Shown here piece after piece: positions 1,573 through 19,879 of a DNA stretch of 64,000 bases. Origin of the DNA: Flavobacteriaceae bacterium PS02334 (GTDB lineage: Bacteria; Bacteroidota; Bacteroidia; Flavobacteriales; Flavobacteriaceae); the NCBI GenBank assembly GCA_029959295.1, contig JASCOH010000003.1, forward strand, positions 372,001-436,000, read 5' to 3'. Position 1 is the stretch's first letter. Every line of letters starts with the position of its first letter. A program made the position numbers and the translations under genes. The notes beneath the pieces were generated by a model. That model was not told the origin of the DNA. It saw nothing but the letters and a program-made list of their open reading frames with translations, and made no database searches.

Positions 1573-2692
1573 CATACAACTAAACACAATAGAAGAAGCG
1601 ATCGAAGATATCCGTCAAGGAAAAGTAATCATCGTTGTTGATGATGAAGATCGTGAAAATGAAGGCGATTTTATTGCCGCTGCAGAAAAAGTTACTCCTG
1701 AAATGATCAATTTCATGGCCACACACGGACGCGGTTTAATCTGCGCGCCATTGACAGAATCAAGATGCAAAGAACTTGAATTGAATTTGATGGTAACTAA
1801 TAATACGGTTTTGCACGAGACACAATTTACAGTTTCTGTAGATTTGATCGGTCACGGCTGCACAACTGGAATTTCTGTTCATGACAGAGCAAAAACAATT
1901 CAATTTTTAGTAGACGATAACACAAAACCAGAAGATTTAGGGCGTCCTGGACATATTTTTCCTTTGCGTGCTAAACAAGGTGGCGTTTTAAGAAGAACTG
2001 GACATACAGAAGCTTCTATTGATTTGGCAAGATTGGCTGGATTTAAGCCTGCTGGAATTTTAGTTGAAATCTTAAATGAAGACGGTTCGATGGCACGCTT
2101 GCCTCAGCTTTTAGAAGTTGCCAAGAGATTTAACCTGAAAATTGTTTCTATAGAGGATTTGGTAGCTTACAGAATGCAACACGACAGCTTGATCCAAAAG
2201 AAAGAAGATTTTGAAGTTGAAACTCGTTTTGGCAATTTCAGGCTTCGTGCTTATGTACAAACCACAAACAAGCAAGTTCATGTTGCCCTGACTAAAGGAA
2301 GTTGGAACAACGGAGAGCCAGTTTTGACGAGAATTAATTCAACGCAAGTCAATAATGACATTCTAGGAACGCTGACAAGCGATGCTGACAAAAAATTAGA
2401 TGACATGTTCAGAAGAATTAATGAGGAAGGAAAAGGTGCTATTCTTTTCATAAATCAAGAAATTCAGCCAGGAGAACTGCTTAATCGCATCACAGAATTG
2501 AAATCTTTACAAGAAAAAGGCATAACAAAAGCGCCGCAAATTAAAATGGACGTGAAAGATTTTGGCATAGGAGCGCAAATTTTGCATGATATTGACATTA
2601 CAAAAATACGTTTGCTGTCAAATTCTGAGCAGGAAAAACGTGTCGGAATGATTGGATATGGCTTAGAAATCACAGAAAACGTGAGATTCTAG
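1565..2692 (+). CDS. ribB: 3,4-dihydroxy-2-butanone-4-phosphate synthase with degenerate GTP cyclohydrolase II domain
   Basis: A 375-residue RibBA-type protein of riboflavin synthesis. Residues about 1-205 are the DHBP-synthase domain that converts ribulose-5-phosphate to dihydroxybutanone phosphate; the acidic motif [28 protein letters not shown] and RPGHIFPL are intact. The C-terminal half has the GTP cyclohydrolase II fold, but the zinc-ligand stretch normally like VHSECLTGD..SLRCDCG reads [19 protein letters not shown], with all three cysteines missing, so this half is unlikely to hydrolyse GTP. ATG 1565 overlaps the preceding stop by 8 bases; an in-frame upstream ATG at 1520 lies inside lptF/G and is not favoured. 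Confidence 0.92.
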
Positions 2693-2787
2693 AAAAAAAT
2701 AAAAAATTATTTTTTCTATAAGTTAAAGAAAATGAATTGATTAATTCAGCATAGAAAAAAAAGTTATTTTTTTAGTCGCAAAATGTT

Positions 2788-2816
2788 TTGATAATCAAAA
2801 AAGGGTGTTATATTTG
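2788..2816 (+). promoter_or_regulatory. Bacteroidota-type promoter of tRNA-Ser
   Basis: TTG at 2788-2790 (-33 element, within TTTTG) and TATATTTG at 2809-2816 match the Bacteroidota primary sigma consensus TTG - TAnnTTTG, separated by 18 bases. The predicted start is near 2822, about 27 bases ahead of the mature tRNA. Confidence 0.75.
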
Positions 2817-2848
2817 CACTCGCAATCAGGTAATGAAAGCGACATACT

Positions 2849-2933
2849 GGAGAAATGGCAGAGCGGTCGAATGCGGCAGTCTTGAAAACTGTTGACTGTA
2901 ACAGGTCCGGGGGTTCGAATCCCTCTTTCTCCG
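2849..2933 (+). tRNA. tRNA-Ser(TGA)
   Basis: An 85-nt cloverleaf with a long variable arm. The acceptor stem GGAGAAA (2849-2855) pairs perfectly with TTTCTCC (2926-2932), followed by discriminator G2933. The anticodon loop CTTGAAA (2881-2887) carries TGA at 2883-2885, flanked by GCAGT/ACTGT. The T arm contains GGTTCGAATCC. CCA is not encoded. The tRNA lies directly ahead of an integrase gene and its 3' end is the likely integration site of the downstream element. Confidence 0.96.
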
Positions 2934-2936
2934 CGG
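2912..2936. other. Candidate attL core in the 3' end of tRNA-Ser
   Basis: A tyrosine-recombinase gene follows the tRNA within 300 bases, and all sequence to the window end looks like integrative-element DNA. Such elements usually recombine at the T arm and acceptor end of the tRNA, which is restored by the element copy. No second copy of the tRNA tail was noticed in the window, as expected if the right end lies beyond 64000. The precise core is inferred. Confidence 0.45.
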
Positions 2937-3000
2937 AATGAGTAAAAGACTCAAATTAAAATTTGAATTTACTCTTAAGATTATCTTGAAAAAGGCGTAA

Positions 3001-3034
3001 AACCTGCAAATCACAACGATTTGCGGGTTTTTTT
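3001..3034 (+). terminator. Rho-independent terminator after tRNA-Ser
   Basis: A 12-bp stem (AACCTGCAAATC at 3001-3012 with GATTTGCGGGTT at 3018-3029, one T-G wobble), loop ACAAC, then a run of seven T at 3028-3034. It would end tRNA transcription before the integrase. Confidence 0.85.
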
Positions 3035-3091
3035 GCTTTAGGGCCTATCGCCAAAATTTGCAAAACCACCCAAAGTAATTATGGCAGAACC

Positions 3092-3124
3092 GTGGCACTT
3101 TTTAAAGTAATAAAAAAGTGCCAC
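3092..3124. repeat. Perfect 12-bp inverted repeat beside the element end
   Basis: GTGGCACTTTTT (3092-3103) and AAAAAGTGCCAC (3113-3124) are exact inverted copies separated by 9 bases. It lies between the tRNA terminator and the integrase start, where integrase arm sites or an integrase operator would be expected. It is followed by A-rich, not T-rich, sequence on the plus strand, so a terminator for that strand is less likely. Confidence 0.7.
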
Positions 3125-3225
3125 AAAAACACCCGTAATCTACTGTATGGCAACCAGTAAACCTGTTTTACATCTTGATTTTGATACGCATTAATTCTAC
3201 ATTTATTAACTTTAATATCTGGATT

Positions 3226-4527
3226 ATGCTAGAAAACAGCTTTGGGCTCACCTTCTTTCTGAAGACCCCGAAAAAAAAGGAAAATATCAGGATGGTCTAC
3301 CTGCGAGTTACGGTAGACGGCATACCAAAAGAATCCTCAACAAAGCGCAGATGGGACATGACACGATGGGACCAGAAAATTGAGCGTGCGACAGGAAACA
3401 AGGAAGACGCCAGGACTCTCAACTTCTTCCTGGATTCAGTAGTGCAAAAAATAAATATTTTCAAGACTGAGTTGATGAACAGGGAACAAACGATAACCTC
3501 CCAGAAGATTATCGACTTGGTTAATGGAAAAATAGCATCAAAGACTAAAGTCCTTGAAGAATTTCAGAACCACAATGACAAAGTACACGAACTTGTGCCC
3601 AAAGAATATGCTATGGGGACTTACGATAGGTATGTGACAGCTAGAAGCCACGTTCAAGAATTTATGAAATCCGTATACGGCCGTGATGATATGGAATTCA
3701 GAGAACTGAATTATCAATTCATATGCAATTACGAACACTATCTAAAAACGGTAAGGGCCTGTAGCAACAACACGACCCTTAAATATATTTCTAATTTCAA
3801 GAAAATAATACTGATTGCGATAGAAAAGGAAATAATCCCGAAGGATCCCTTTTCCAGCTTCAAGGGAAAAAAAACAAAAATCCCAAAAAAACCACTCAGC
3901 GCAGGCGAACTTCATACGCTTCAAAAACATACATTCCATACCGAAAGGCTTGCCACAGTTAGAGATATCTTTATCTTCCAATGCTACACGGGACTTGCCT
4001 ACATTGACGCGTACCAGCTAAAAAAAACCGATATAAAGATCGGAAGCGATGGTGAGCGCTGGATCATGTCTGCCAGGCACAAGACAAAGTCTGAAACCAA
4101 CATACCCCTCCTGCCCGATGCTATCGCTGTTATGGAAAAATACGAAGACCATCCGATATGTGTTGAAAGAAATTCGGTGCTGCCGGTATCGTCAAACCAG
4201 AAGATGAACGAATACCTCAAGGAAATTGCGACGCTCTGTGGCTTCCAATTTGCCCTGAACACCCACAAGGCGAGAAGAACATTTGCCAGCACCGTTACTC
4301 TTAACAACGATGTTCCCATCAACGTCGTAAAGGAAATGCTCGGGCACCAGTCGGTCAGACAGACAGAAGAATACGCACTGACCGAGCAGAAAACTATTGG
4401 AAAGGAAATGTCTGAATTAAAGGAAAGGCTTCACCAAAATTCGCAACAGAGAAATGAGAATGCATCTGTAGCCATAGAAAGGCTCGAAAAGGAAATTGAG
4501 GAGCTAAAAAGAACTATTAGCGAGTAA
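3226..4527 (+). CDS. int: Tyrosine recombinase (integrase) of the element
   Basis: A 433-residue tyrosine recombinase expected to insert and excise the element at tRNA-Ser. An N-terminal arm-binding region (about 1-85, FFLKTPKKK..VYLRVT) precedes a SAM-like core-binding domain and the catalytic domain. Visible catalytic features are the box I region CYTGLAYIDAYQL, the beta-hairpin lysine in ARHKTKSE, HKARRTF (HxxR) and LGHQSVRQTEEYAL with the nucleophilic tyrosine. The box I arginine is replaced, as in several Bacteroidota integrases of the IntDOT type. ATG 3226 is chosen because the extra 17 codons reached by starting upstream are hydrophobic and unlike the family. The C-terminus ends in a short charged coiled coil. 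Confidence 0.93.
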   Translation: MLENSFGLTFFLKTPKKKENIRMVYLRVTVDGIPKESSTKRRWDMTRWDQKIERATGNKEDARTLNFFLDSVVQKINIFKTELMNREQTITSQKIIDLVNGKIASKTKVLEEFQNHNDKVHELVPKEYAMGTYDRYVTARSHVQEFMKSVYGRDDMEFRELNYQFICNYEHYLKTVRACSNNTTLKYISNFKKIILIAIEKEIIPKDPFSSFKGKKTKIPKKPLSAGELHTLQKHTFHTERLATVRDIFIFQCYTGLAYIDAYQLKKTDIKIGSDGERWIMSARHKTKSETNIPLLPDAIAVMEKYEDHPICVERNSVLPVSSNQKMNEYLKEIATLCGFQFALNTHKARRTFASTVTLNNDVPINVVKEMLGHQSVRQTEEYALTEQKTIGKEMSELKERLHQNSQQRNENASVAIERLEKEIEELKRTISE

Positions 4528-4694
4528 AAGGCAACTACGCTTTTCGGATCTACATTATTTCTCTATTGTTAATATATCAAAAAGAAAATGTACCTTCGAT
4601 AATTGCTTCTTGATATTCTTACAAAGCCACTCGATAGCAACCCTATAGCTTTCTAATTGATCGAAAGATAGAATAATAGTTAAAATTTCATATA

Positions 4695-6188
4695 ATGGTG
4701 ACCAATATTGAGTTTGAGATTGCGCCAATCGAGGAAGTTCCTGAAGCTATACTCGATATCATTAGCAAGTTTTTTTTATATCAGGAAAAGACAGAGCCAC
4801 TAGGAGATGATATTGTGAACATGATCGATGGATACCTGGAAGTATTTAAGGAAGATTTATATTGCCTCATTGAGTACCCTTATGTAGACAAGGTTTACAG
4901 AGACAGCTATTACAGTTATTATTCGTCTAAGCACTTGACATACCAGCGGGATAGCATAAGGGTTTCCATTTTTAGCTCTGAAATAAAACCTGAAGAATTT
5001 CTGGACGCGCAACAGCACGATGCCTTAAATGGCAAGTATCTGGGATATTTTACGGTCAGACCAACCCTTAATGCAATTTTCGGGCGATCGCTGGTCAGTC
5101 CATCTGCCTTGACAAACTGCAATTTTAAAATTTGCAGAAGCCGGCAGGAAAGTCTTGTTTATGGAGCTAAATTGTATACTGACGGTTTTCCACACAGTTC
5201 GCAGGATGAAGAAACGATTCTCTGTGCTGAAACTACTGTCTGGGGCTTGATGGAATATTTTTCTGCAAAGTATTCCGATTACAAACCTGCCCTGCCTTCG
5301 CAGATCCATGAAGTATTGAGAAGCATAATGATTCAGAGGCAGCTGCCTTCTCTCGGGCTTTCAATGGATCAGATATCCTTTGCATTGAAGGAATTCGGCT
5401 TTGGAACAAGGATCTACAACAGGGCACCGTATAGCAGTGAGATCTACAACATTATTGACTGCTATATTGATTCCGGAATCCCGATACTGATCGGACTCGA
5501 ATCTTCAAAGGCCGGACATGTGGTAATCGGCATCGGAAAGGAATATGATTACGGCTTTGATTTAGAAACGGTCCCTGCTTCAGATTTGGGTTCACACGGA
5601 CGCATAAAAAAATTTATCGAATACACCAATTTCCCAAAGAAATATGTCGTACAGGATGACAATATGCCTCCCTACACGATAATTGACATGGCGGATCCAG
5701 GTGTCCATTACGATCATCCCGATTTCGACGGCATGGAAGTAGATTCTATAATTGTGCCCCTCTATCCAAAAATATACTTGGAAGCGGAGGTTGCAAGGGA
5801 GCTATTCCTGCAGATCGTCAAGGATGAAAAAATAGGATATGATTTTGAAGACGGATTCATATTCAGGTACTTCCTGGCTTCAAGCCGCTCTTTTAAAAAC
5901 CACGTCAGCTTATCGGAAATGGATGAAGGGCTGAAATATAATATTCTTTCATGCAAAATGCCAAAGTTTGTGTGGTGTGGAGAAATCTACAGCGCTGGAA
6001 CGCGCGTGCGAGATGGAGAATATCCAATTAGCCTCCTCGTACTTGATGCTACGGAAGCCAATAAAACAGGAATCGATGCGCTCATATTTGCCGGATATCC
6101 AGATAATTGTATCAGGAAAAATGAAAATAATTATGTATCTTTGCAGGGCACTTTCGAAAAATATGCGTATTATAGCAATCTAAAGTAA
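4695..6188 (+). CDS. Papain-like (C39-like) cysteine-peptidase-fold protein
   Basis: A 497-residue cytoplasmic protein with no signal peptide. The middle resembles papain-fold peptidases of the C39-like group: a cysteine in QDEETILCAETTVWGLMEYF (C177), a helical stretch, then a histidine in AGHVVIGIG (H275), the order and spacing expected of a Cys-His pair. The N-terminal 150 residues and C-terminal 200 residues show no motif I recognise. A 62-residue gene follows 6 bases later and is probably translationally linked. It lies directly behind the integrase, a common slot for accessory or defence cargo. The peptidase role is inferred from motif pattern only. Confidence 0.6.
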   Translation: MVTNIEFEIAPIEEVPEAILDIISKFFLYQEKTEPLGDDIVNMIDGYLEVFKEDLYCLIEYPYVDKVYRDSYYSYYSSKHLTYQRDSIRVSIFSSEIKPEEFLDAQQHDALNGKYLGYFTVRPTLNAIFGRSLVSPSALTNCNFKICRSRQESLVYGAKLYTDGFPHSSQDEETILCAETTVWGLMEYFSAKYSDYKPALPSQIHEVLRSIMIQRQLPSLGLSMDQISFALKEFGFGTRIYNRAPYSSEIYNIIDCYIDSGIPILIGLESSKAGHVVIGIGKEYDYGFDLETVPASDLGSHGRIKKFIEYTNFPKKYVVQDDNMPPYTIIDMADPGVHYDHPDFDGMEVDSIIVPLYPKIYLEAEVARELFLQIVKDEKIGYDFEDGFIFRYFLASSRSFKNHVSLSEMDEGLKYNILSCKMPKFVWCGEIYSAGTRVRDGEYPISLLVLDATEANKTGIDALIFAGYPDNCIRKNENNYVSLQGTFEKYAYYSNLK

Positions 6189-6194
6189 ATAATC

Positions 6195-6383
6195 ATGGCG
6201 AGCAAAAGAATCAAAATATCATTTAAGAATGTTAATGAGGGAAGATTTACCGTCATTAGCAGTGCTGATATTTCCCAGAGTTCCAACCGTATTAAGACAG
6301 AAATGAAAGACGTTGTCCGAGAACATGAGAAGAGACAGGTGCTTTCTCAAAAAGAGGCATCAAAATTAGTCCTTAACTTTTAA
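6195..6383 (+). CDS. Small charged protein linked to the cysteine-peptidase-like gene
   Basis: A 62-residue basic protein (MASKRIKISF...) beginning 6 bases after the upstream stop and followed by a hairpin terminator, so the two genes form a compact operon. It has no membrane segment or signal peptide; the C-terminal half is predicted helical and charged (KDVVREHEKRQVLSQKEA). I do not recognise the family. The tight coupling makes it a possible partner, substrate or inhibitor of the larger protein. Confidence 0.55.
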   Translation: MASKRIKISFKNVNEGRFTVISSADISQSSNRIKTEMKDVVREHEKRQVLSQKEASKLVLNF

Positions 6384-6389
6384 ATATTT

Positions 6390-6416
6390 GTAAGTCCCGA
6401 TTATTTCGGGACTTAC
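6390..6416 (+). terminator. Hairpin terminator of the cysteine-peptidase operon
   Basis: GTAAGTCCCGA (6390-6400) pairs perfectly with TCGGGACTTAC (6406-6416) across a TTATT loop, 6 bases after the small gene's stop. It is followed by TATTTATTAG rather than a clean T run. Confidence 0.7.
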
Positions 6417-6709
6417 TATTTATTAGATCTTCGTAACTCAAAATAAATATTGAAGCACGTCCCATAGCTAAGAGTTAGCAGACAATTGATTCTACAAATA
6501 ATCAATCTGAAAAATGAACGATTAGCTACTTTTCTATTTTTATATATTTTAATCTACGCTATTTCCTGCAGCACAAAAAATTTAAAAATTTGCCCTGCTT
6601 TAACGGCTACATTTTTTTTCAATTCAAGGTTTGTTATTGGAAATATTAATTTCAAATTTCTTTACAAGTTCATTTTAATTTTTTTTTGCTCTGCTTTAAA
6701 ATTACACCT
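6417..6709. other. AT-rich stretch without a confident gene
   Basis: It contains long T runs and a 77-codon open frame (6486-6719, plus) whose hydrophobic, low-complexity composition looks like AT-rich background rather than a gene. It presumably holds the promoter of the gene starting at 6710; I see no clear TAnnTTTG box close to it. Confidence 0.4.
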
Positions 6710-7309
6710 ATGGAAATAAATTCAAAAGCCTGCAGTTACATTGATAATATGTCAATAACTCTTATGGAATTATTAAAAGTGGAAAAAAATATTTCAGTTC
6801 AGAACATCCAAAAACCACCAATTGGTTCTCTGGGGCAGCGAAACTTTTTAGATTTATCTGATAGAATTGATCCTGAAGCCATTATAGTAGAATCATTAAC
6901 ATCCCACTCCGGAGAAACTGTAGCAAAATATTTTCAGCATGGTGAATCTAAGGTCGGATATGATGAAGAAGCTTTCAAGCCATTCAAGAAATTTATAAAA
7001 AATATTTATAAAAATAAAGAAATCAGCAGTTGGGTTTCGGCTGGTTGCATTGAAGAACTTGCATTTAAATGGATAATCCAGGTTTATCAAAACCAAATGG
7101 TTGCAAAATTAAATTTGTCGTCATACTTGACCACAAACATCAATGAGAGGGTTTTAACTCAGAAATATCATTTTCCAATACTGAATCTAGACATCAGTTC
7201 AACTTTTAACCTAGGAGCCGTGTCAATAAGTTATTTTTCAAAGGAGGACTTTAAGTCGGCTCTTCCCAAAGTACTATATAATAAAAATTCAGGTATTGTT
7301 TCAGAATAA
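6710..7309 (+). CDS. Uncharacterised protein convergent with the CHAT gene
   Basis: A 199-residue protein of unknown family. Codon use and amino-acid pattern look genuine (helical segment around KPFKKFIKNIYKNKEISSWV; no signal peptide or membrane segment). ATG 6710 is chosen over an upstream in-frame TTG that would add a hydrophobic leader. Its last 79 bases overlap the end of the convergent CHAT gene on the opposite strand, an arrangement that could produce antisense transcripts. No motif allows a function to be assigned; its position suggests it belongs to the same accessory module. Confidence 0.55.
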   Translation: MEINSKACSYIDNMSITLMELLKVEKNISVQNIQKPPIGSLGQRNFLDLSDRIDPEAIIVESLTSHSGETVAKYFQHGESKVGYDEEAFKPFKKFIKNIYKNKEISSWVSAGCIEELAFKWIIQVYQNQMVAKLNLSSYLTTNINERVLTQKYHFPILNLDISSTFNLGAVSISYFSKEDFKSALPKVLYNKNSGIVSE

Positions 7310-9369
7310 TGAAGTTTTTTATCAGAGGTTAGTTTTTGAATATGAAAATCTAATGTTGAATATAATTCTCTTCTCTTTTCGAAAAACAAAGAGTCATTTA
7401 GAGCTACAGAATTAGATTTAACAAATTTATCCTGATCTAATTTGTACTTTTTTAAAAGTGAAAAATATGTTTCGTTTATAGTTGATGTTCTTATTACATG
7501 ACTGACAAATTCAAGCCAATTTTTATGAATCATATTTTCCAATACAAAACTTAGTTTTTCTAAAATTCTTAAATATAAAAATGATCCAGAATCTATTCCG
7601 ATTGGAATATAAGTAGAAGTTACGGCTAACGATCCAACTTCAAAAAATGCATTCGCAATAATATTATATGTACCATATGTCGGAGCAGTTCCACATGCCG
7701 AGATAAAAACTATTGGTGCGTATATTTCATTTTCAATTACATATTTTCCATCCAAAATTTCATCCTCAATACACAAATAAGTAGACTTTGTTTTTTCGTC
7801 TACTCCTCCATGGCAATCAAATACCAAAATATCAAGTTTAATTAAATGCACAATTTTTTTAACATCATCAATCGAATTACATTTTTTAACAATGAATCCA
7901 TGTAGATTTGCAGATTCAAAAACACGTTCATGCCAAAATTTAAATGCCTGATCACCACAACCAAGAATAATTAAAGTTTTCTTTAAAATATCTTTTGATA
8001 TTGAAAATTCAAAAGCCTCATTATATGTATAAATAGACATAAGACCATGTAAGGAAGTTTCTGGTAATCGGCAAATATCGTGGCTAAATGATAAAGGCAC
8101 ACCATCAATATTCAGCCATTCAACAGGTAAATCAGAAATAGCAATTATTTGACTATCTCTATTTTTAATTTTATTTTGGATTTTTGGACTTAGTACTTTT
8201 TTTGCTAAAATTCCACCAAATCGATTTATCGACTTTGCTATTTTTTTTCGGTTTTTTGTTATACTTAATGAATTGAAAAATAATGACCTAAAGAATGATA
8301 ATTATGTGTAAATAGATTTACCTTGTATTGGTAATCTAATAACTGGACTAAAATCAAATGTTGAATGTAGATATGAAACGTCATCGAGATATCTAATACG
8401 ATCCATTACAATTTGAGAACCAGCAACTGCTAATTTTAAATCTTCCTTTCCATTATGGTCAACAATATAGTTTTGAGTTTGCTCTGTTTGAATTAAATCA
8501 ATTCTTTTATCATTGTTGTATAGCTTTTTGATATCAGGATTATTAAACGGAAGAACTATTATTAATGGAGCTAATTTAGGTTCTATTTGTGTAACAAGAT
8601 TTGTTAGAGTTGTTTTAATTGCAATTTCACGAAAGAAATCAATTTTTCTAATTTGCTCTAAAAACAAATTTTGTCGATCAAAGGAATGTTTGTTTTTATG
8701 AGCTTTGCTTGTCTCATTTTTAATATCTTCTTTTATTTTTTGTCTTTCTTCATCATCATTTTGAATATTTCCATTGAAATTACCTATTATCTGGTTTGTC
8801 AAATGATAATTGCCTTTTGTAGGTGTAAAGAAATTGAATTTATTATAATCTTTATAATCTAAACTAATTGATAAATTTAATTTAATGTTTTAGAAATTCA
8901 TTAAATCCAAAATTTCTCTTTGATTACAAAAGATCTCGTTTAAGAATGAAAACGGTGATAAAACAACCTTATCTTTAAGGTTATTCACATTCTCTAAATT
9001 TCTAAAATAAAAAAAAATAAGTTTGTTTTTTCCAACTAACTTTTGATAAATTTCTTCATGTATTTTTGATTTAGAATCTAAAAATATTAATGTTAATTGA
9101 ACTGCATTAAGAGAATGTTCAATAATATTTTCGATACTGTGAGTGTAAAAGAATTTAAAATCTGTTCCATAAAACCACAATTTTTTGGAGTAAATTTCAA
9201 AAAAACTTATAGGATCGATTAGCTGTAATAAATCAACGGGACATTGCTTTATAAATTCAATTGTGTTATTATTGAATTCTTCTGGAGCCAAAAATGGCAA
9301 ATTGAAAGAATGTAAATCAGAAACTAAAATATATTGTATTGTACTTTTATTTTTAAATCGTGCTTTCAT
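7231..9369 (-). pseudogene. CHAT-domain (caspase-like) protease gene with two in-frame TAA codons
   Basis: One reading frame of 713 codons runs from ATG 9369 to TAA 7231-7233 and is interrupted only by TAA at 8890-8892 (codon 160) and TAA at 8302-8304 (codon 356); there is no frameshift. The third segment has CHAT (caspase HetF-associated with TPRs) features: VFDCHGG with H520, IVFISACGTAP with C559, then IIANAFFEVGSLAVTSTYIPI and the tail FLLYSTLGRAD. The sequence between the stops and the next possible start codons still reads as protein (for example DSQIIAISDLPVEWLNIDG just upstream of the GTG at 8100), and segments two and three have no plausible early start (TTG 8802 and GTG 8100 are internal codons). 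The first 355 codons match nothing I know. Most likely a recently inactivated gene; readthrough or sequencing error are alternatives. Confidence 0.7.
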
Positions 9370-9929: not shown

Positions 9930-10011
9930 TTAATTTTTATTTATTTTTGGCTTAGATTTATTAAATTTGCGATTCTTCATATAAAATATTTGAAGTATTC
10001 GCTTTGAATCT

Positions 10012-10120
10012 CGTTTCGGAAAACTGGCGTTTTTATAACCACGAGAGGATAAGTAAGATGCTCACGACCTAGGCGTGGGCTCACTTATTTGTGGTTGGGT
10101 ATGCCAGTACCTCTGAAACG
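10012..10120 (+). ncRNA. Candidate structured RNA: 109-nt extended multi-helix hairpin
   Basis: Five collinear helices nest without crossing: CGTTTC/GAAACG (10012-10017 with 10115-10120), ACTGGC/GCCAGT (10023-10028 with 10103-10108), AACCAC/GTGGTT (10037-10042 with 10091-10096), ATAAGT/ACTTAT (10049-10054 with 10083-10088) and GCTCACG/CGTGGGC (10060-10066 with 10074-10080). The seven-base apical loop ACCTAGG contains the self-complementary CCTAGG. A TAAATTTG box at 9962-9969 could be its -7 promoter element, and T runs follow near 10139. The rod-with-bubbles shape resembles 6S RNA (a 6S-Flavo class exists), but it could also be a leader element of the susC operon 300 bases downstream. The same helices form on the complementary strand, so the plus orientation rests on the promoter box. 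Confidence 0.55.
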
Positions 10121-10414
10121 ATAAGCTGAGTTCCGCGCTTTTTTATGGCCTTTAACCAAGGCACGCCCAGCTAAATTCAAAGCATTCTTCCTTTTTTTTA
10201 ATGCATTTCGCAAACGATTTCGTAAAATAAGTTAGTTCGGAAACGCGCTGCCTGCCCCTGGCTGCAACAGGCAACGGCAGCGTGCTTTCCTTTTCAAAAA
10301 AAGAAATGCCTATGTCCTAAATTCTACAAAAGAAAAAGCCCTCTAACCCGTCGTCGAAAACAGCTAGAGGACCAGAGCCAACAAAACATTGTTTCATCAA
10401 ACCATCCCAAAATT
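10121..10414 (+). promoter_or_regulatory. Long leader of the susC operon with a GC-rich hairpin
   Basis: No gene is present. A hairpin forms at 10244-10284: CGCTGCC (10246-10252) pairs with GGCAGCG (10276-10282), extended by G-T and C-G pairs, with an inner CCTG/CAGG stem. A weaker CCTCTA/TAGAGG pair lies near 10340-10372. GC content rises sharply from about 10240 onward, marking the start of the GC-rich cargo block. Confidence 0.45.
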
Positions 10415-13400
10415 ATGAAAAACCTTTCATATCTCAAGGGGAGGAAGGCTTTTTGGTGCCTTATTTTTCTAAGCGCGCCATTCCTCCACCCACCGGCTCA
10501 TGCCAGCGAGCCGGCAATCCATACCTTTTTACAGCAACAAAATACCGTATCGGGCACGGTCTCCGATGTCGCGGGAACGCTCCCCGGCGTCTCGGTTTCC
10601 GTAAAGGGAAAGCCCGGCGCCACGCTCTCTGATTCCAAAGGAGCCTACCGCATTGAAGCATATGCTGGAGAAATCCTTGTTTTTTCCTTCCTCGGCTATG
10701 CCACCCAGGAGATTGCTTTTTCGGGCAGTCCCACATTAGATATTGTACTGGTTCCAGACACCCGAACGCTCCAAGAGGTAACGGTCAATGCGGGCTACTA
10801 TTCCGTCAAGGACAAAGAAAGGACCGGAAGCATTTCCAGGGTCACTTCCGAGGATATCGAGACCCAGCCGGTTTCTAACGTGCTCGCCTCCCTGCAGGGG
10901 CGCATGGCGGGAGTATCCGTGACGCAGTCCACCGGAGTTCCCGGAGGCGGCTTCTCCATACAGATCCGAGGCCTGAACTCGTTGCGCGGGACAGGAAACG
11001 ATCCGCTCTATATTGTCAACGGGGTGCCTTTCGCCTCACAGCCTATGGGCAATTCAGAACTCAACAACGGGGTGCTCCAGTCGCTGGCCAGCCCGCTGAA
11101 CAGCATCAGCCCGTCCGACATCGAGAGCATCGAGGTGCTCAAGGATGCGGACGCTACCGCTATCTACGGCTCGAGGGGCGCCAACGGCGTGGTGCTCATA
11201 ACCACCAAAAAAGGAAAGGCCGGAAAATCCAGGCTGGAAGCCCGGGCGGCCACCACGGTCGGCAGGATGGCAGGACGCATGAAGCTGCTCAACACCCAGC
11301 AGTACCTGGACATGCGCCGCCAGGCCTTTATCAACGACGGGCTCGCGGACTACCCCTTTTCGGATTACGATATCAACGGGACCTGGAACCAGACCCGCGA
11401 AACGGACTGGCAGAAGGAGCTGATCGGCAGGGATGCCGCGGTATCCAGCCTGCAGCTCTCCCTCTCTGGGGGCAGCGCGGAAACGCAGTACGCGCTTTCC
11501 GGCACCTTCCGCAATGAGACGACCGTCTTTCCGGGAGATGCCCGCTACCGAAGGGCGGCGCTCCACTCCAGCGTTTCCCACCAGTCAAAGGACGACAGGC
11601 TCAGGATACGCTTTACAGCGGACTATTCAGACGACAGCAACAGGCTTCCGGGCGCTGACCTGACACGCCAGGCCTATACGCTTGCCCCCAACGCCCCCGA
11701 ACTGTACGCAGCGGACGGAGGCTTGAACTGGGAGGGCGGCACTTTTGAAAACCCGCTGTCCTACCTGCTGGGCACTTACCGCACCGCCACCCAGAACCTG
11801 ATCGCCAATGCCAGCCTTTCCTACAGCCTGGGCCACGGATTCGAGGCAAAATCCAGCTTCGGCTACACCGACACGCGCCTCTCCGAGAAAAGGACCAGAC
11901 CCAGCACCATGTATAATCCAATATACGAGACCACCAGCGCCGATTCGCAGCTGATCATAAACAGCAACCGGAGGAGCTCCTGGATAGCAGAACCGCAGGT
12001 GAGCTGGACGCACAGCTGGAACAAGGCAGCCCTTAACGTGCTGGCCGGGGCCACCTTCCAGAGCCTGGACCAGGAATCGCTTGCCATCGACGGCTACGGC
12101 TTTCCCAACAACGCCCTGATCAACACCCTGCTGGCCGCATCCTCTATCACCGTCCTTGACCACGGCATTTCACAATACCGCTACACTGCCTTTTTTGGAA
12201 GGCTGAATGCAAGCTGGGACGGGAGGTACATCATCAACCTGACCGGGCGCCGGGACGGAAGCAGCAGGTTCGGTACCGGCAACCGGTTTGCGAGCTTCGG
12301 CGCCGTAGGGGGCGCCTGGATATTCTCCAAAGAAAAGATGCTGGAAGACAGCGGGACGCTCAGCTTTGGCAAGCTGCGGGCAAGCTTAGGCACCACGGGC
12401 AACGACCAGATCGGCGACTACCAGTTTCTGGACACCTACTCGGTCACCGCTAATATCTATAACGGCGTCACAGGAATGGCCCCGTCCAGGCTCTTTAACC
12501 CTGCATTCGGATGGGAAACCAACCGGAAATTTGAAATGGCCCTGGAATTGGGATTCTTCAAGGACAGGATATTTCTGAGCGCGGCTTTTTTCCGCAACCT
12601 CTCCGGCAACCAGCTTGTAGGCATTCCGCTCCCAGGCACGACCGGATTCACGAGCCTGCAGTCCAACCTGAATGCTACGGTCGAAAACAGGGGCGTGGAA
12701 CTGGAGCTGCGCACAGAAAATATAAAGACTGGCACCTTCAGCTGGGCCTCATCCCTGAACCTTTCGGTACTCAGAAACAGGCTGCTGGAATTTCCGGGGC
12801 TGGAAGCCTCGACCTACCGCAACAATTTTGCTATCGGGGAATCACTGAACATCACAAGGCTCTACCAGCTGACAGGCATCGACCCCTCCACGGGACTTTA
12901 CACCTTCCGGGACTTTAATGGGGACGGCGCCATTACCTCCAGCGAGGACCGCCAGGTGCTTGGCGACACGACGCCTGATTTTTTCGGGGGTTTTTCCAAC
13001 AGCCTGACCTATAAAAACTGGTCGCTGGATTTCCTCTTCCAGTTCGTGCGCCAGCAGGGGCAGGACGTCAGGGCAGGCTTTCCGATTCCGGGATCCTTTT
13101 CCAACCAGCCACAGGAGGTACTGCAAAGCTTCCCGCAGGCGGGCGCTACCGTACAGCAGTACACCAGCGGGTCCAGCCCCGATGCGATCGAAGCTTTCGA
13201 TAGATACGTCCGAAGCGATGCCATGCTGTGCGATGCGTCTTATGTCAGGATGAAGTCGCTGGTGCTCGCCTACCGCATTCCGGCCCTGTCCAAAAACTGC
13301 GAGGCAAGCCTCTACTTCCAGGGCCAGAACCTGTTCACCCTTACCCGCTACAAGGGTCCCGATCCGGAGAACCAGTCCGGTTCCTTCCTGCCCCCGCTGC

Positions 13401-13438
13401 GGCAGCTTACCCTTGGCATACAGCTCACGGTAAAATAA
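10415..13438 (+). CDS. SusC/RagA-family TonB-linked outer membrane protein
   Basis: A 1007-residue outer-membrane transporter that with its SusD partner imports glycans or peptides using TonB energy. A signal peptide (about 1-30, ending HASEP) is followed by a carboxypeptidase-D regulatory-like domain (about 45-110, VSGTVSDVAGTLPGVSVSVKG), then the plug domain with SusC hallmarks (LQGRMAGVSVTQ, IQIRGLNS, PLYIVNGVPF, IESIEVLKDADATAIYGSRGANGVVLITTKKG, about 150-270) and a C-terminal beta barrel. It is GC-rich like its neighbours and unlike the tra backbone. SusD starts 62 bases after its stop. With an S9 peptidase in the same operon, a peptide cargo (as for RagAB) is a reasonable inference. Confidence 0.95.
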   Translation: MKNLSYLKGRKAFWCLIFLSAPFLHPPAHASEPAIHTFLQQQNTVSGTVSDVAGTLPGVSVSVKGKPGATLSDSKGAYRIEAYAGEILVFSFLGYATQEIAFSGSPTLDIVLVPDTRTLQEVTVNAGYYSVKDKERTGSISRVTSEDIETQPVSNVLASLQGRMAGVSVTQSTGVPGGGFSIQIRGLNSLRGTGNDPLYIVNGVPFASQPMGNSELNNGVLQSLASPLNSISPSDIESIEVLKDADATAIYGSRGANGVVLITTKKGKAGKSRLEARAATTVGRMAGRMKLLNTQQYLDMRRQAFINDGLADYPFSDYDINGTWNQTRETDWQKELIGRDAAVSSLQLSLSGGSAETQYALSGTFRNETTVFPGDARYRRAALHSSVSHQSKDDRLRIRFTADYSDDSNRLPGADLTRQAYTLAPNAPELYAADGGLNWEGGTFENPLSYLLGTYRTATQNLIANASLSYSLGHGFEAKSSFGYTDTRLSEKRTRPSTMYNPIYETTSADSQLIINSNRRSSWIAEPQVSWTHSWNKAALNVLAGATFQSLDQESLAIDGYGFPNNALINTLLAASSITVLDHGISQYRYTAFFGRLNASWDGRYIINLTGRRDGSSRFGTGNRFASFGAVGGAWIFSKEKMLEDSGTLSFGKLRASLGTTGNDQIGDYQFLDTYSVTANIYNGVTGMAPSRLFNPAFGWETNRKFEMALELGFFKDRIFLSAAFFRNLSGNQLVGIPLPGTTGFTSLQSNLNATVENRGVELELRTENIKTGTFSWASSLNLSVLRNRLLEFPGLEASTYRNNFAIGESLNITRLYQLTGIDPSTGLYTFRDFNGDGAITSSEDRQVLGDTTPDFFGGFSNSLTYKNWSLDFLFQFVRQQGQDVRAGFPIPGSFSNQPQEVLQSFPQAGATVQQYTSGSSPDAIEAFDRYVRSDAMLCDASYVRMKSLVLAYRIPALSKNCEASLYFQGQNLFTLTRYKGPDPENQSGSFLPPLRQLTLGIQLTVK

Positions 13439-13500
13439 TTGACCACAAAAACATGATTGAAGTGCGTTACCTAATATCCTATAAATTTAAAACGACCGTA

Positions 13501-14868
13501 ATGAAAAAGCTAAAATACATCCTGTTCACGGCACTTGCCGGACTGCTCGCCTGCGATTCCTTTACCGAGCTGGACGCGCCCCCTACGCAGATCGCCTCAT
13601 CTGAGGTATTTATCGACAAGTCTGGGGCTGAATCGGCCCTGGCGGACATATACGCCCGCATCCGGGAAGAAGGCGCGGTCTCCGGCAACGCCTCCGCAGG
13701 CACGGTGCTTCTCGCCAATTATGCCGACGACCTCACCTTCTACGGAGCCAACGCGAACCTGGAACAGTTCTCCAGGCACACCCTTGTAGATTCGAACACC
13801 TACCTCAACACGCTGTGGCGCGCGGCCTATTCCCAGATCTATGCCGTCAATTCCTTCCGGGAGGGCGTGCTGGGCGCCCAGCATATCGGGGAAGAAGACA
13901 GGGATCGATTTCTGGGTGAGGCATTGTTCCTGAGAGGATTTCTCCATTTCTATCTTGTCAACATTTTCGGGAGCATACCCTACGTCACCTCGACCGACTA
14001 TGAGGTAAACCGATCCGTCGGGAAGATTTCTGAGCAGCAGGCCTATGGGCTTATCGTGCAGGACCTGCTCCTTGCAGCGGAATTGATTCCAGAAACGTAC
14101 CCGTCGGCTGAGCCGGTCCGCCCCAACAAGTCGGCCGTACATGCGCTACTTTCCAGGGTACGCCTCTACACGGGAGACTGGCAGGAAGCCGCAGCGTATG
14201 CCACCCTGGTCATCGAAAGCCCAATGTACAGCTGGCAGCAGGATCTGGACCAGGAGTTCCTGCGAACGAGCCCCGCTACCATATGGTCACTGCATCCAGG
14301 GCTGGCCGGAGTGAATACCAGGGACGCCCGCAGCTTCGTGTTTTTCGCCGGACCGCCTTCCATACCGACGCTCTCCCCCGAACTGTACGCTTCGTTCGAG
14401 GACGGCGACCTGCGCAGGACGGCCTGGGTGACGGAAATACAGGGAACAGGCGGACCATGGTACCATGCCAGCAAATACAAGAAAATTACCAATACCGGAT
14501 CCTCTGAAGAATACACCGTGCTTTTCAGGCTGGCCGAGATGCACCTGATCAGGGCCGAATGCAGGACTATGCTGCACGACCTTGAGGGTGCCAGGTCCGA
14601 TATCGACAAGATACGCAGCCGCGCCGGCCTGGGAGGCACCACAGCGTCCACGGAGCAGGCACTCCTCGCGGCCGTGCTGCAGGAGCGCAGGCTCGAGCTC
14701 TTCGCCGAGCAGGGGCACCGGTTCTTCGACCTGAAACGCACTGGAAACGCCGACCAGGTACTTTCCATCGCAAAGCCCAACTGGAGGCCCACCGGTGTGG
14801 TGTTCCCACTGCCCCTGAACGAGCTGCTTCTAAACGGGAACCTGCTTCCCCAAAATCCAGGATACTGA
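13501..14868 (+). CDS. SusD/RagB-family substrate-binding lipoprotein
   Basis: A 455-residue surface lipoprotein forming the lid of the SusC channel. It has a lipoprotein signal with lipobox LLAC (residues 15-18, ACDSF), an N-terminal SusD-like region and the C-terminal RagB/SusD signature (ALFLRGFLHFYLVNIFGSIPY; later RLAEMHLIRAEC and LQERRLELFAEQGHRFFDLKR). The open frame extends upstream into susC, but the start at 13501 is fixed by the signal peptide. Its TGA is one base before the next ATG. Confidence 0.95.
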   Translation: MKKLKYILFTALAGLLACDSFTELDAPPTQIASSEVFIDKSGAESALADIYARIREEGAVSGNASAGTVLLANYADDLTFYGANANLEQFSRHTLVDSNTYLNTLWRAAYSQIYAVNSFREGVLGAQHIGEEDRDRFLGEALFLRGFLHFYLVNIFGSIPYVTSTDYEVNRSVGKISEQQAYGLIVQDLLLAAELIPETYPSAEPVRPNKSAVHALLSRVRLYTGDWQEAAAYATLVIESPMYSWQQDLDQEFLRTSPATIWSLHPGLAGVNTRDARSFVFFAGPPSIPTLSPELYASFEDGDLRRTAWVTEIQGTGGPWYHASKYKKITNTGSSEEYTVLFRLAEMHLIRAECRTMLHDLEGARSDIDKIRSRAGLGGTTASTEQALLAAVLQERRLELFAEQGHRFFDLKRTGNADQVLSIAKPNWRPTGVVFPLPLNELLLNGNLLPQNPGY

Positions 14869-14869
14869 T

Positions 14870-17365
14870 ATGGCAAAGCTAATAGTACTTCTGGTGACGC
14901 TGCTGGTCGGCTGCTGGGCACACGGACAGTCAGCCGGAGCCATACCGCAAAACGATTACGATCTCTGGACACGTCTTGGTGATGAGCGGATGTCGGCGGA
15001 CGGGAAATGGGTTACATTTACATTGTCAGGGCCCCATGGAAAGGATACCCTGTGCCTGCAAGAAGCCAAGACTAAGAAACTGCAGAAGTTTAGCCGGGGC
15101 ACTGATGGAAAATTTTCTCCTGAAGCAGGCTGGTTCATGTATACCTCCTCTGGCAATACAATCCTTATCAACCTGGCTTCCGGCACCGCAGCGAGCGTGG
15201 CAGGCACAAAGAAGGCGGCGTTCGGAAACCGCGGCGCTGCGGTGCTTGCAAAGGATTCGACGCTTTCCATTTTCAGAAGCAAGTGGCCTGCGCCTAAAGT
15301 AATAGGGAGTGTCCGTGATTTTAGTTTCAGCGATAGCGGGCATCTTGCCATTGCATACGGGAAAGGCATCCAGGTCCTGAGAAAAGCGGACGCTGTGGCC
15401 TTTTGGATTTCAGGTTCCATGCCGGCGGACCGGCTATGGTGGGACCATTCCGGAACGCCCCTTTTTTATTTGGCCGAAAGTGGCAGTGACGGAAAGACGC
15501 TGGCCGCAATCGGCATCACAGACAAAAATCATGTGCAAATCGAGACCGAAACACTCTCCAGGCTCCAGATTGCGCTGGCGCCACAAAGCCCGATCGTTGC
15601 AAATCTGGATGCTACCGAATGCTTCGTATGGGCATCACCGATTAAAAAAACCGCGCTTGCCGCAGACTCCCTTGTGGAAATATGGAAATCCTCCAGCCCG
15701 CTGCAGTACGGTGCCCAGCGAGAATTTGACCTGATCCCGAATCTGCCCCGCTCCTACCGGTGGGATCTGCAAAATGGCACGCTTGAAAAAGTGGCGCCAG
15801 ACTCGCTCTTCCTGCAGCGGATTTTGCCCGACAGGAATTATGTCCTGGCGTACAACCCCATCCGCGCAGGACAGCTCCACCTGGACATTCCCGAAACAGA
15901 CTATTACCTTAAAAATGTCAGCACCGGCAAGCTTGCGCTGCTGCTGACAGGACAGCCTACAGCGACCGGCGCCCTGATGCCCTCGCCGACAGGCGACCAT
16001 ATCGGCTACCGCGGCGAGAAAGGCTGGATGCACTATGACCTGGAACGCAACACGCATACCCTGGTACTGGAAAATGCAACTGCAGGGGATGCTTCGGGGA
16101 GCGACGCCGGAGGCCTGTCAAGCCCAGGGTGGACTGCGGACGGAAAATACTGCATTGTCCATTCGGGAGCAGATTTCTGGCTCACCGGCAAAGACGGAAC
16201 CCGCAACATTAATATGACCCGCGACGCAGCGCCCAATATAAAATTCAAGCTCATCGGGGAAATGCACAAAAACCTGCAGCAATTTTCAAGTGCCGAGATA
16301 GCCTACAGCCACCTGGACATAGATCGGGGCATTTTTTTTCACGCCTACAGTACCGAGATGGCCTCACTTTTATACCGGTGGACGCAGAAAAAGGGATTGG
16401 AACTTATGTACCGGAGCCCTGGAAAGGCAAAAGTCTGCTCTGTAACGGACGACTACCGCACCTTACTTCTAAGGGAAGAAAGCGATAAGGAGCCCGCAAG
16501 CCTGCTCCTGCTGGATCTCGCTACCGGCCATAAGAAAATGCTCTACCAGTCCAATAGGCAGTACCTGCATTACGGCATCCCCATTGTAGACCTCATGCCG
16601 TTCAGCACTGCTGACGCGCGGCAGCTGAATGCGCTGCTGCACTACCCTGCGAGCTATGACCCGCAGAAGAAATATCCCATGATTGTATATGTATATGAAA
16701 TGCTGTCCCAAAACCGGTACGAATATAATATGCCCACCAACTTCAGCCCAACGGGATTTGCCGTTGCCAACTATACGAACGACGGCTACTTTGTGCTGCA
16801 GCCCGACATCAGGCACATCACCGGCAATCCCGGTTCATCGACTGTAGACTGTGTCGTAAGTGCCGTGGAGAGCGCATGCAAGAGGGCAAGCATAGACCGC
16901 CAGAAGATTGGAATGATCGGCCACTCCTATGGCGGGCACGAGACGGCTCTGACGATCACCAAGACTCCTATATTTGCAGCTGCCGTAGCTGGTGCCGCCT
17001 CCTCCAATATGATCAGCGACTACCTCAGCATTAATGACATCACAGGCCGAATCAAGTTCTGGAAATTTGAATCCCAGCAGTACAGGATGGGCGGGGATCC
17101 TTTTAGCAGCATGGACCGCTACTTGGAAAATTCTCCGGTACTACATGCCGCGAAGATCGTAACACCGCTGCTTAGCTGGTCCGGGAAAGCGGACGGAACT
17201 GTAGACTTCCGCCAGAGCGTGGAGATGCACTTGGCTTTGAAGAGGCTTGGGAAGGAAAGCATCCTGCTAGCATATCCGGAGGAGGGACATATACTCTCGC
17301 AGCCGGAGGCGCAGTCCGACCTTACCAAGCGCATAAAGGCATGGTTTGACAGCTACCTGAAATAA
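14870..17365 (+). CDS. S9-family (prolyl oligopeptidase-type) serine peptidase, secreted
   Basis: An 831-residue exported peptidase: signal peptide about 1-20 (LLVGCWAHGQS), a beta-propeller-like N-terminal region to about residue 560 and a C-terminal alpha/beta-hydrolase domain. The triad is visible: nucleophile S686 in GHSYGG, D775 in SGKADGTVD and H807 in EEGHIL. It starts one base after susD, so it belongs to the same transcript and probably cleaves peptides delivered to or released from the SusCD pair in the periplasm. A lipoprotein reading (VGC at 13-15) is possible but less convincing. Confidence 0.9.
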   Translation: MAKLIVLLVTLLVGCWAHGQSAGAIPQNDYDLWTRLGDERMSADGKWVTFTLSGPHGKDTLCLQEAKTKKLQKFSRGTDGKFSPEAGWFMYTSSGNTILINLASGTAASVAGTKKAAFGNRGAAVLAKDSTLSIFRSKWPAPKVIGSVRDFSFSDSGHLAIAYGKGIQVLRKADAVAFWISGSMPADRLWWDHSGTPLFYLAESGSDGKTLAAIGITDKNHVQIETETLSRLQIALAPQSPIVANLDATECFVWASPIKKTALAADSLVEIWKSSSPLQYGAQREFDLIPNLPRSYRWDLQNGTLEKVAPDSLFLQRILPDRNYVLAYNPIRAGQLHLDIPETDYYLKNVSTGKLALLLTGQPTATGALMPSPTGDHIGYRGEKGWMHYDLERNTHTLVLENATAGDASGSDAGGLSSPGWTADGKYCIVHSGADFWLTGKDGTRNINMTRDAAPNIKFKLIGEMHKNLQQFSSAEIAYSHLDIDRGIFFHAYSTEMASLLYRWTQKKGLELMYRSPGKAKVCSVTDDYRTLLLREESDKEPASLLLLDLATGHKKMLYQSNRQYLHYGIPIVDLMPFSTADARQLNALLHYPASYDPQKKYPMIVYVYEMLSQNRYEYNMPTNFSPTGFAVANYTNDGYFVLQPDIRHITGNPGSSTVDCVVSAVESACKRASIDRQKIGMIGHSYGGHETALTITKTPIFAAAVAGAASSNMISDYLSINDITGRIKFWKFESQQYRMGGDPFSSMDRYLENSPVLHAAKIVTPLLSWSGKADGTVDFRQSVEMHLALKRLGKESILLAYPEEGHILSQPEAQSDLTKRIKAWFDSYLK

Positions 17366-17381
17366 GGGCGTAAAATACAAA

Positions 17382-17405
17382 AGCCGAAGCTGTTGGGCTT
17401 CGGCT
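17382..17405 (-). terminator. Terminator between the S9 peptidase and the convergent DUF6520 gene
   Basis: AGCCGAAGC (17382-17390) pairs with GCTTCGGCT (17397-17405), loop of six. Read on the minus strand the stem is followed by TTTTGTATTTT, so it mainly serves the minus-strand operon; it may also slow plus-strand transcripts. Confidence 0.75.
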
Positions 17406-17427
17406 CAGGTTTCAGTCTAAAAACGAG

Positions 17428-17697
17428 CTACTGGTCGATCTTCCAGAGAAGTGTCGGACATGAGGTACCGCTCGCATTCAGCCTTCTCAGCTGCACTGCT
17501 CCAAAAAGACAGGGCTGTCCATTGTCTACATCTTGGCAGTCAATCATCTTGTTTTCACAATTGCCAGGCGAGGTCTGGATGTAGCCCTTGTGCACGGCAA
17601 GCGTACTTTTTTCAGCTGGCTTAAATGCAAATGCACTAAAAATCGCTAGACCGAATGCAGATAGCATTAGTGCCGGTCTCATTAATGAATTTTTCAT
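17428..17697 (-). CDS. Small secreted cysteine-bearing protein, DUF6520-like
   Basis: An 89-residue protein with an N-terminal signal sequence (about 1-25, ALMLSAFGLAIFSAFA) and a short mature part GYIQTSPGNCENKMIDCQ..PC...SCPTLLWK with four cysteines. The pattern GYIQTSPG..C plus a C-terminal SCP..L fits the small exported proteins annotated DUF6520 in Flavobacteriia, whose function is unknown. It follows the MauE/DoxX gene by 77 bases on the same strand and is presumably cotranscribed; the membrane redox partner could act on its cysteines. Confidence 0.7.
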   Translation of the reverse strand: MKNSLMRPALMLSAFGLAIFSAFAFKPAEKSTLAVHKGYIQTSPGNCENKMIDCQDVDNGQPCLFGAVQLRRLNASGTSCPTLLWKIDQ

Positions 17698-17774
17698 AAT
17701 AATATCTATTTTTGTTACTGATCTACTCTATTACAGGTTTTCGATCCTCCCCCTGACACTGCAGTATTTCTTGA

Positions 17775-19262
17775 TTAATAAAATTCTTTTTTGAGCCTGT
17801 AAGTCCTGATAAAATTTCCATTAAGCACATAGATCAAGTCTCCGGAAACGCGAAAGTCTTTAAGCCTGGCATTCGGCTTGTCGTCGATGTAAAAACTGAA
17901 ACGGTAGGTTCCGTCCATAAAATCGTAAACATCTATGATCGAATTCGCATCCCAATTTTCTCTCGGCTCATATTGCCCAAGAAGCCCGGCGTGGACGTAG
18001 AGAAATCTTCCATACGTTGCAGTGCGCCTGTTTACTGTCACAGCAGGCTCACTCAACTTGGAGCCGCGCTGCGAACGCACAAACTTGACTTTTATTTTGG
18101 CGCGGGTATTCGTATCTATCGTATTCCCATAGCGCGTGGCCTCCATCAGCGTATCGCTTACGGCATACTGGTTTCGGTAGTAGTAGGTATACAATATCTT
18201 GCCATACTGCTTATTATACAGGTGCGTCCCGTCAGTATCGAAGAGCCCGTCAACCTGCTTGGTCAGTATATTAGGGTTCAATTTCACATCAATAGACTTT
18301 CCGACGGTAATTAGTCCCAACACGGTCTCATTCGTTTGGGTGCTGATAGCCCTGATAGCGCCTCTAGTAGGGCTGATAGGAACATAAGATGTAAAATAGG
18401 CCTGTCTGTTAATGTACGGGTAGGCTTTCCAGTTTACCGTATCGCCTTTATATACATAGGCTTCGACGCCATCCCAGATATAAAAATTAGGCGGGTCTAC
18501 AACCAGGTTTAAGCTCTTGTATTTTGTTCGAACGTCTTCAATGTCTATAGTATGCACCTTTGTCAAGTTCAGGGAAGAATCTAATTCGGTAACACTCAAT
18601 GGCGCAGTATAATTACCAAGATAAACCTTGCCGGCGCTGTAACCTGCTATGTAATAAGAATTAAATTTCAGATCCACTTCGTTTCCTGCCGTAATGGGGT
18701 GATGCGGGAAGCTTCTCGTAAAATTATTCCTCTGGTGCTTCATTTTTTCCGATACTTGGAACAGTGCGTAAATGGACACGGAGCCGGCGGCCAGCAAAAG
18801 CAGAAGGTATGCCAGCACGCGCTTCATGCTATGCCTGCTCGGCAACAACACGGCAATCGCTGCCATAAAGACAAAAATCAAATTGAAAAAAAGATGCTGC
18901 TTCCAACCCAGGCCCTCCAGTATGCCACCACAGGAACAGGGAATAAATGGGCTGTAATTGATCATCACATAAATGTAGGCAGTGAACAGGCCCATTAAGA
19001 AATAGCTTATGTAAAAAGCCAACTTTCTTGTCTTCGGAAATACCAGAAGCATTGCAAGCACCAGCTCCAAAAAAGGAACGAAGAACGACGCAGCACCTGC
19101 AAAGGAACTTACCAGAGGCGACTGCCCGAGCTGTACCTGAAAGTTCTCGAAATCCAGCAACTTGCTTACTGCAGCGTAGACAAAAAGTAGCACAAAGAGA
19201 TATGCTATGATTTCAATTGTCCAGTTCATTATTCTGCTATCGGTTTTCATAATGCGATTCAT
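17775..19262 (-). CDS. MauE/DoxX-family redox-associated membrane protein with C-terminal extracytoplasmic domain
   Basis: A 495-residue protein. The N-terminal 170 residues form a four-helix MauE/DoxX-like unit (EIIAYLFVLLFVYAAVSKLLDFENF, LELVLAMLLVF, then PFIPCSCGGILEGLGWKQHLFFN with the CxC motif typical of MauE relatives). A further helix near 155-175 leads into a about 300-residue C-terminal region with repeated beta-strand blocks, probably a propeller facing the periplasm. MauE relatives help disulphide formation or reduction of exported partners. Two motif repeats 44-78 bases upstream of its start match the array in front of the AraC operon. Starts at 19262, 19250 or 19226 are possible. 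Confidence 0.75.
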   Translation of the reverse strand: MNRIMKTDSRIMNWTIEIIAYLFVLLFVYAAVSKLLDFENFQVQLGQSPLVSSFAGAASFFVPFLELVLAMLLVFPKTRKLAFYISYFLMGLFTAYIYVMINYSPFIPCSCGGILEGLGWKQHLFFNLIFVFMAAIAVLLPSRHSMKRVLAYLLLLLAAGSVSIYALFQVSEKMKHQRNNFTRSFPHHPITAGNEVDLKFNSYYIAGYSAGKVYLGNYTAPLSVTELDSSLNLTKVHTIDIEDVRTKYKSLNLVVDPPNFYIWDGVEAYVYKGDTVNWKAYPYINRQAYFTSYVPISPTRGAIRAISTQTNETVLGLITVGKSIDVKLNPNILTKQVDGLFDTDGTHLYNKQYGKILYTYYYRNQYAVSDTLMEATRYGNTIDTNTRAKIKVKFVRSQRGSKLSEPAVTVNRRTATYGRFLYVHAGLLGQYEPRENWDANSIIDVYDFMDGTYRFSFYIDDKPNARLKDFRVSGDLIYVLNGNFIRTYRLKKEFY

Positions 19263-19305
19263 TAAATTTCGTATTGTAAAATTCTGAATACTAAAATGAA
19301 AACGG

Positions 19306-19340
19306 TTAGCGAATCGGGAGTAAATTTTACCGATTCGGGA
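19306..19340. promoter_or_regulatory. Two direct repeats (21-bp spacing) upstream of the MauE gene
   Basis: TTAGCGAATCGGGA (19306-19319) and TTACCGATTCGGGA (19327-19340) share a core ending in TCGGGA and lie exactly 21 bases apart, two helical turns. They resemble the four-copy array at 21268-21343. The arrangement is typical of AraC-family half-sites, and an AraC-family gene lies between the two arrays. Confidence 0.65.
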
Positions 19341-19446
19341 TAATTTTGTAAGCTTTCAGAAAATGAATCTTTTGGGCTCGGATGCTGTAGATTTGCCGAC
19401 ACGGTTCGGCGGCACTCGGTAGTGCCTCACTGCAGAAAGGCCGGGA

Positions 19447-19659
19447 CTATGTAAACCTGTTCTTTAAATCTCCAGCACCGCAATACTGATTGCCAGGGAT
19501 CTGGCTACCTATTGTTACAGAACCGCTGCCCGACCCATTAAGAAATGTTTGTTTCTGGCAATGCACAAAATCAGAATGTCCACTATGGAAAGTAAGGTAA
19601 GGCTTATTGCAGGAAGTACCTGCATCGCCTGCTATGTGGCCCTGCCAAATAACTACCAT
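19447..19659 (-). CDS. Possible small protein, doubtful
   Basis: A 70-codon frame (MVVIWQGHIAGDAG...) with three cysteines and a glycine/serine-rich centre (FLNGSGSGSVTIGS). It has no signal peptide and begins inside the relic reading frame that precedes it, so it may be non-coding debris or the tail of a decayed gene. I do not recognise it; it is listed because 19341-19652 otherwise contains nothing I can identify. Confidence 0.2.
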   Translation of the reverse strand: MVVIWQGHIAGDAGTSCNKPYLTFHSGHSDFVHCQKQTFLNGSGSGSVTIGSQIPGNQYCGAGDLKNRFT

Positions 19660-19879
19660 ATATGGTCGCGGCCGAGTAAGAGGAAGCGGGCCGCTACACC
19701 GCCCGGACCTTCGAAAAGATAGTCTATCCGGCCCTTGTCCTTCCAGTCGGTCCCGATGCTGAAGGCAGGAATGTACTCTCGAAGTTGGGCCGGTTAACCG
19801 CGCTCACAGTGAGATTCTGAAGACCTAACCTAAGGCCGTGATACTGTTTCAAATATTCCAAAACAATCTGGGGAGGCTC
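19653..19879 (-). pseudogene. Gene relic with a frameshift, directly behind the AraC gene
   Basis: On the minus strand, the frame following the AraC stop reads EPPQIVLEYLKQYHGLRLG then LQNLTVSAVNRPNFESTFL, and after a one-base shift near 19763-19771 continues PAFSIGTDWKDKGRIDYLFE then GPGGVAARFLLLGRDHIW to a TAG at 19653. The two pieces join smoothly at the protein level, so it looks like the 3' end of a decayed gene that lost its front part. No family could be assigned with confidence; GC-rich composition matches the surrounding cargo. Confidence 0.4.

Follow-up and report, generated by a model that had tools for sequence, protein, structure and literature searches.

A bovA pseudogene of the Borvo anti-phage family, probably of recent origin, beside a second damaged-looking gene

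The minus-strand frame at 9369-7231 of the window (the whole 64,000-nucleotide stretch of DNA analysed here) is a pseudogene of the Borvo anti-phage family and not a working member of it. It is probably recent, and it lies beside a second gene that also looks damaged. Our preferred reading, to which we assign a probability of about 0.87, is that the frame is a recently inactivated copy of bovA within a low-G+C segment that holds an integrase gene next to a tRNA-Ser gene. Two in-frame nonsense codons are present in the sequence, and they would have cost the gene its function. The positions of these features are collected in the table.

Features of the bovA pseudogene and its surroundings, in window coordinates
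Feature	Coordinates	Strand	Remarks
bovA pseudogene (Borvo-type CHAT protein)	7231..9369	-	712 codons, two of them internal TAA, plus terminal TAA
First nonsense codon, TAA	8890..8892	-	codon 160
Second nonsense codon, TAA	8302..8304	-	codon 356
Segment 1	8893..9369	-	N-terminal 159 residues from ATG
Segment 2	8305..8889	-	195 residues; first ATG/GTG/TTG is TTG at 8802
Segment 3	7231..8301	-	356 residues, CHAT protease part; first ATG/GTG/TTG is GTG at 8100
Predicted catalytic His codon, H520	7810..7812	-	motif FDCHGG; from alignment
Predicted catalytic Cys codon, C559	7693..7695	-	motif ISACGT; from alignment
Convergent ORF, 207 aa	6686..7309	+	41% identical (28/68 residues) to part of a 451-aa protein (L056)
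Tyrosine recombinase (integrase) adjoining tRNA-Ser	3175..4527	+	
tRNA-Ser (tga)	2849..2934	+	possible integration site

Read directly, the bovA frame runs from an ATG start through 712 codons to a terminal TAA, and it can be followed end to end without any frameshift. It holds two internal stops, compared with 33-92 in the other five frames. When the bases of the region were shuffled 2000 times, the mean number of stops was 63.4 (range 38-92). The openness of this frame is not a product of chance. A previous sequence-only reading had described three segments in one frame, parted by TAA codons at 8890-8892 and 8302-8304, and the frame, coordinates and codons are exactly as it claimed.

The description of Borvo is credited to Millman et al. 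2022 in PMC10952713, which lists the system with a CHAT protease domain. Phages are reported to escape it through DNA polymerase mutations, and its activation is described in the same source as not understood (PMC11348598). With X placed at the stops, residues 7-703 of the window frame match positions 5-706 of the 720-position PADLOC BovA profile (PDLC03831; E 7e-46). Segment 3 alone matches profile positions 361-706 (E 1.3e-43). Searched by itself, segment 1 gives no match at E values up to 1 in Pfam, PADLOC or NCBIfam, and segment 2 gives none in Pfam or PADLOC and a single chance-level row in NCBIfam (E 0.13). The near-full-length match to BovA nevertheless indicates that segments 1 and 2 form the N-terminal half of the same protein. 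The earlier description of a CHAT protein with an unknown N-terminal half thus holds for the CHAT part, whereas the other half can be assigned to a known family. Every one of the 10 sequences in alignment A2 also matches BovA (best E 1e-221). The Pfam CHAT model PF12770 matches five of the 11 members of alignment A4 at E values up to 0.1 (best 5.5e-11) and does not match the window copy.

The window gene shares with Borvo the near-full-length profile match, a CHAT protease with a His/Cys pair and a length of ∼700-750 codons, which in intact relatives form a single gene. It differs in being cut by two in-frame TAA codons, so that it is not a single intact ORF, and it is only 21% identical to the Klebsiella member of the family (L024). 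This Klebsiella sequence was included in A2 and left out of A4.

The predicted caspase-like catalytic dyad is formed by H520 and C559, both of which are invariant in A2 (10 sequences) and in A4 (11 sequences), and the earlier proposal that this pair is intact is borne out. When a profile of the C-terminal part is aligned with the CHAT protein 8rot_B (E 0.0023), the same two residues fall on its His and Cys. Of the 45 positions that are invariant in ten intact relatives, the window copy keeps 42, these two included; the altered ones are positions 512, 516 and 556. Measured on matched sets, it retains 90-94% of invariant positions, compared with 86-100% for intact copies. Segment 3 is 46.5% identical to L005 and 46.2% to L006, which are 40.6% identical to each other. 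The corresponding values for segment 1 are 26.5% and 19.9%, with 28.7% between L005 and L006, and this lower likeness could mean some relaxation in the N-terminal part. A structure model of one relative was poor (mean pLDDT 47.5).

If the stops were natural gene ends, some relatives should begin or end there, a finding that had been named as grounds for abandoning the pseudogene interpretation. We opened 14 distinct loci, the window included, of which 10 come from Bacteroidota. In eleven of them the gene is intact, a single frame of 697-753 residues: L004 (Leptospira biflexa plasmid), L005, L006, L007, L008 (Flavobacterium hydatis, 733 aa), L010, L011, L012, L024 (Klebsiella), L026 and L027. 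All 11 run through both sites, and none starts or ends at either one. The stops are therefore lesions. The alignment of relatives also agrees with the suggestion that coding continues past both stops, since homology runs across each of them without a change of frame. In L005, the closest full-length relative (39-40% identity), the match is free of gaps around the second stop. The first stop falls where conservation is low but alignment is still possible, in a stretch that is longer in some relatives.

By analogy with its family and with other CHAT effectors, an intact BovA would sense infection via its N-terminal half. Its caspase-like C-terminal His/Cys protease would then cut cell proteins, and growth would be stopped or the cell killed. 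In the window copy, translation should end after 159 residues, ahead of the protease, and behind the stops there is no ATG, GTG or TTG start that would spare the conserved core.

The position of these starts also bears on a different reading, in which the segments are made separately and come together as a complex, either working or silent. Past the stops the frames remain open for 195 and 356 codons, with the core residues retained. Moreover, Streptococcus thermophilus has a "Borvo-like" system, in which two genes are annotated as BovA, that is reported to be active against phages (PMC12322248), so a divided BovA, as far as that report goes, is not automatically dead. However, segment 2 would have to start at best at the TTG at 8802. 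The GTG at 8100 is codon 424, inside the conserved core and downstream of the invariant D413-W418, and a segment 3 begun there would be missing part of that core. In the 11 intact relatives opened, the gene is never divided at these sites. We consider separate production of the segments very unlikely. Equally improbable is the more elaborate version of this idea, in which short polypeptides from one transcript would assemble only when needed and the protease would otherwise be kept off. If true, such a divided BovA would be a means of restraining a cell-killing protease.

Readthrough of both TAA codons, yielding a little full-length protein and thereby keeping a toxic protease low, would account for a frame that is otherwise open and for its conserved residues. 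This option, already ranked lower in the sequence-only reading, is disfavored because TAA is the usual stop here: among 86 ORFs that reach 250 codons or more, taken from the window and from six further stretches of its genome, 69 end in TAA. Two successive readthrough events would multiply to a very small yield, and no intact relative opened has a stop at either site. We regard readthrough as exceedingly improbable. Slightly less so, but still quite unlikely, is that a sequencing or assembly error placed the stops in an intact gene. The genome is a draft of 69 contigs, and retention of 42 of 45 invariant residues would suit an undamaged gene. On the other hand, completeness and contamination of the assembly are rated at 100% and 0.26%, and the neighboring gene looks damaged too. 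Two separate base errors in 2.1 kb, both of them nonsense and neither a frameshift, would also be unexpected.

For the recently inactivated bovA copy, the retention of the catalytic pair and of nearly all invariant positions fits a recent loss, and on the whole the sequence is not visibly decayed; the proposal of recent inactivation is thus well supported. The earlier reading had also drawn attention to the presence of two nonsense changes without any indel. The pattern itself is real, but it is less informative than was supposed. Of all single substitutions in the bovA frame, 5.8% would create a stop. At assumed indel:substitution ratios of 0.05, 0.1, 0.15 and 0.25, the probability that both of two disabling lesions are nonsense is 0.29, 0.13, 0.08 and 0.035, respectively, which is not very surprising. 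The missing indel is therefore weak evidence for anything. The loss may have come about through relaxed selection or through the burden that the protease imposes, and selection against a toxic protease, which the earlier reading suggested, is only a possible cause. A near-identical intact copy was not found in the collections searched. Because the closest relative is only 39-40% identical over its whole length, the lesions are not datable from substitutions.

Three of the 14 loci are broken, each by a different kind of lesion: nonsense in the window copy, an IS21-like insertion in L013 and a truncation in L009. In L013 (Litoribacter populi, 2134-6993), two ORFs of 523 and 263 aa, which we take to be IS21 IstA and IstB, interrupt bovA within its conserved ISDLP motif. 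For L009 (Pontibacter harenae), tblastn found nothing of the bovA N-terminal part. The three lesion kinds are in line with rapid gain and loss of defense genes. Pseudogenes of restriction-modification and CRISPR systems have already been described (PMC8791490), and the present gene is mostly an ordinary case of such loss; a single pseudogene changes no general picture. What the comparison contributes is a group of distant relatives of Borvo, and the residues invariant among them can direct studies of intact members.

Among 398 sampled same-genus genomes, with at most two candidates scored per genome, there were four BovA matches with E < 1e-40, three of them intact and the fourth the broken window copy. 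The genus is probably Flavobacterium, since one of its genomes encodes the same 733-aa protein as F. hydatis. A scan of genome contigs with A1 returned nine loci, one of which is a duplicate of L002. No relatives were obtained from viral contigs scanned with A1, or from genome and viral contigs scanned with segment 3 alone. L002 and L007 carry the same protein, as do L008 and L025, and plasmid hit H2 is the same plasmid as H1. The intactness count excludes plasmid hits H3 and H5-H10 and phage hits H11-H13, which were not opened. A further candidate, L003 (G303; E 8e-4 over 77 residues, with one TGA), was rejected as a chance match after its three forward frames were viewed.

The genes near the bovA relatives include a CBASS cyclase, capP, type I restriction genes and a type ISP restriction gene. 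At L002 (2735-3646; the same protein as L007), the gene immediately after an intact BovA gene encodes a CBASS CD-NTase (PADLOC cyclase, E 3.3e-121). Two other CHAT systems were compared with the window gene. The likeness to TPR-CHAT/Csx29 of type III-E CRISPR (Craspase) is limited to the protease core, and its gRAMP/Cas7-11 partner is unmatched among the nine pieces scanned around the window bovA. Indeed, no Cas match to PADLOC or Pfam was found in these nine pieces (three of its own and six flanking). SAVED-CHAT is a CBASS-type effector, and neither its SAVED domain nor its cyclase was matched in the same nine pieces.

The G+C content over the bovA region is 0.23-0.29. Of seven other genome stretches taken for comparison, six have values of 0.35-0.37 and one has 0.42. 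The integrase is a possible carrier of this low-G+C cargo. A search of the window for a second copy of the tRNA-Ser 3′ end, allowing up to two mismatches, found only the tRNA itself. The match of the convergent ORF to L056 stops at ∼7246, which is 15 bases within the bovA pseudogene as counted from its 3′ end. This ORF, which has one relative among 199 family genomes sampled (its own genome included), is probably 3′-truncated, and a deletion or rearrangement at the bovA 3′ end probably cut it.

Several other features of the window were observed. Between the integrase and the convergent ORF, a gene at 4695-6188 (+) encodes a 497-aa protein that by eye resembles papain-like (C39/C10) peptidases and has no Pfam match. 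It is followed by a 62-aa gene. The pair recurs with 69% DNA identity in L015, in a 4.5-kb stretch that shows neither integrase nor bovA.

Upstream of the bovA pseudogene, an element of ∼190 bp at 9975-10145 (+) is found in many same-genus genomes with roughly 80-91% identity among the matches listed. Among these same listed matches, some genomes carry two copies, and the second copy in this genome is at C69:7298-7533. The element folds as a long rod (z -4.78), and by eye it starts like a promoter and ends in a T-run. Although it has no match in Rfam at the gathering score, we consider it a candidate 6S-like RNA. Farther along, at 10415-27000, lies a block with genes that look SusC/SusD-like by eye. 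Its G+C content is mostly 0.53-0.58, compared with the 0.35-0.37 of six of the seven other stretches, and the block is probably foreign.
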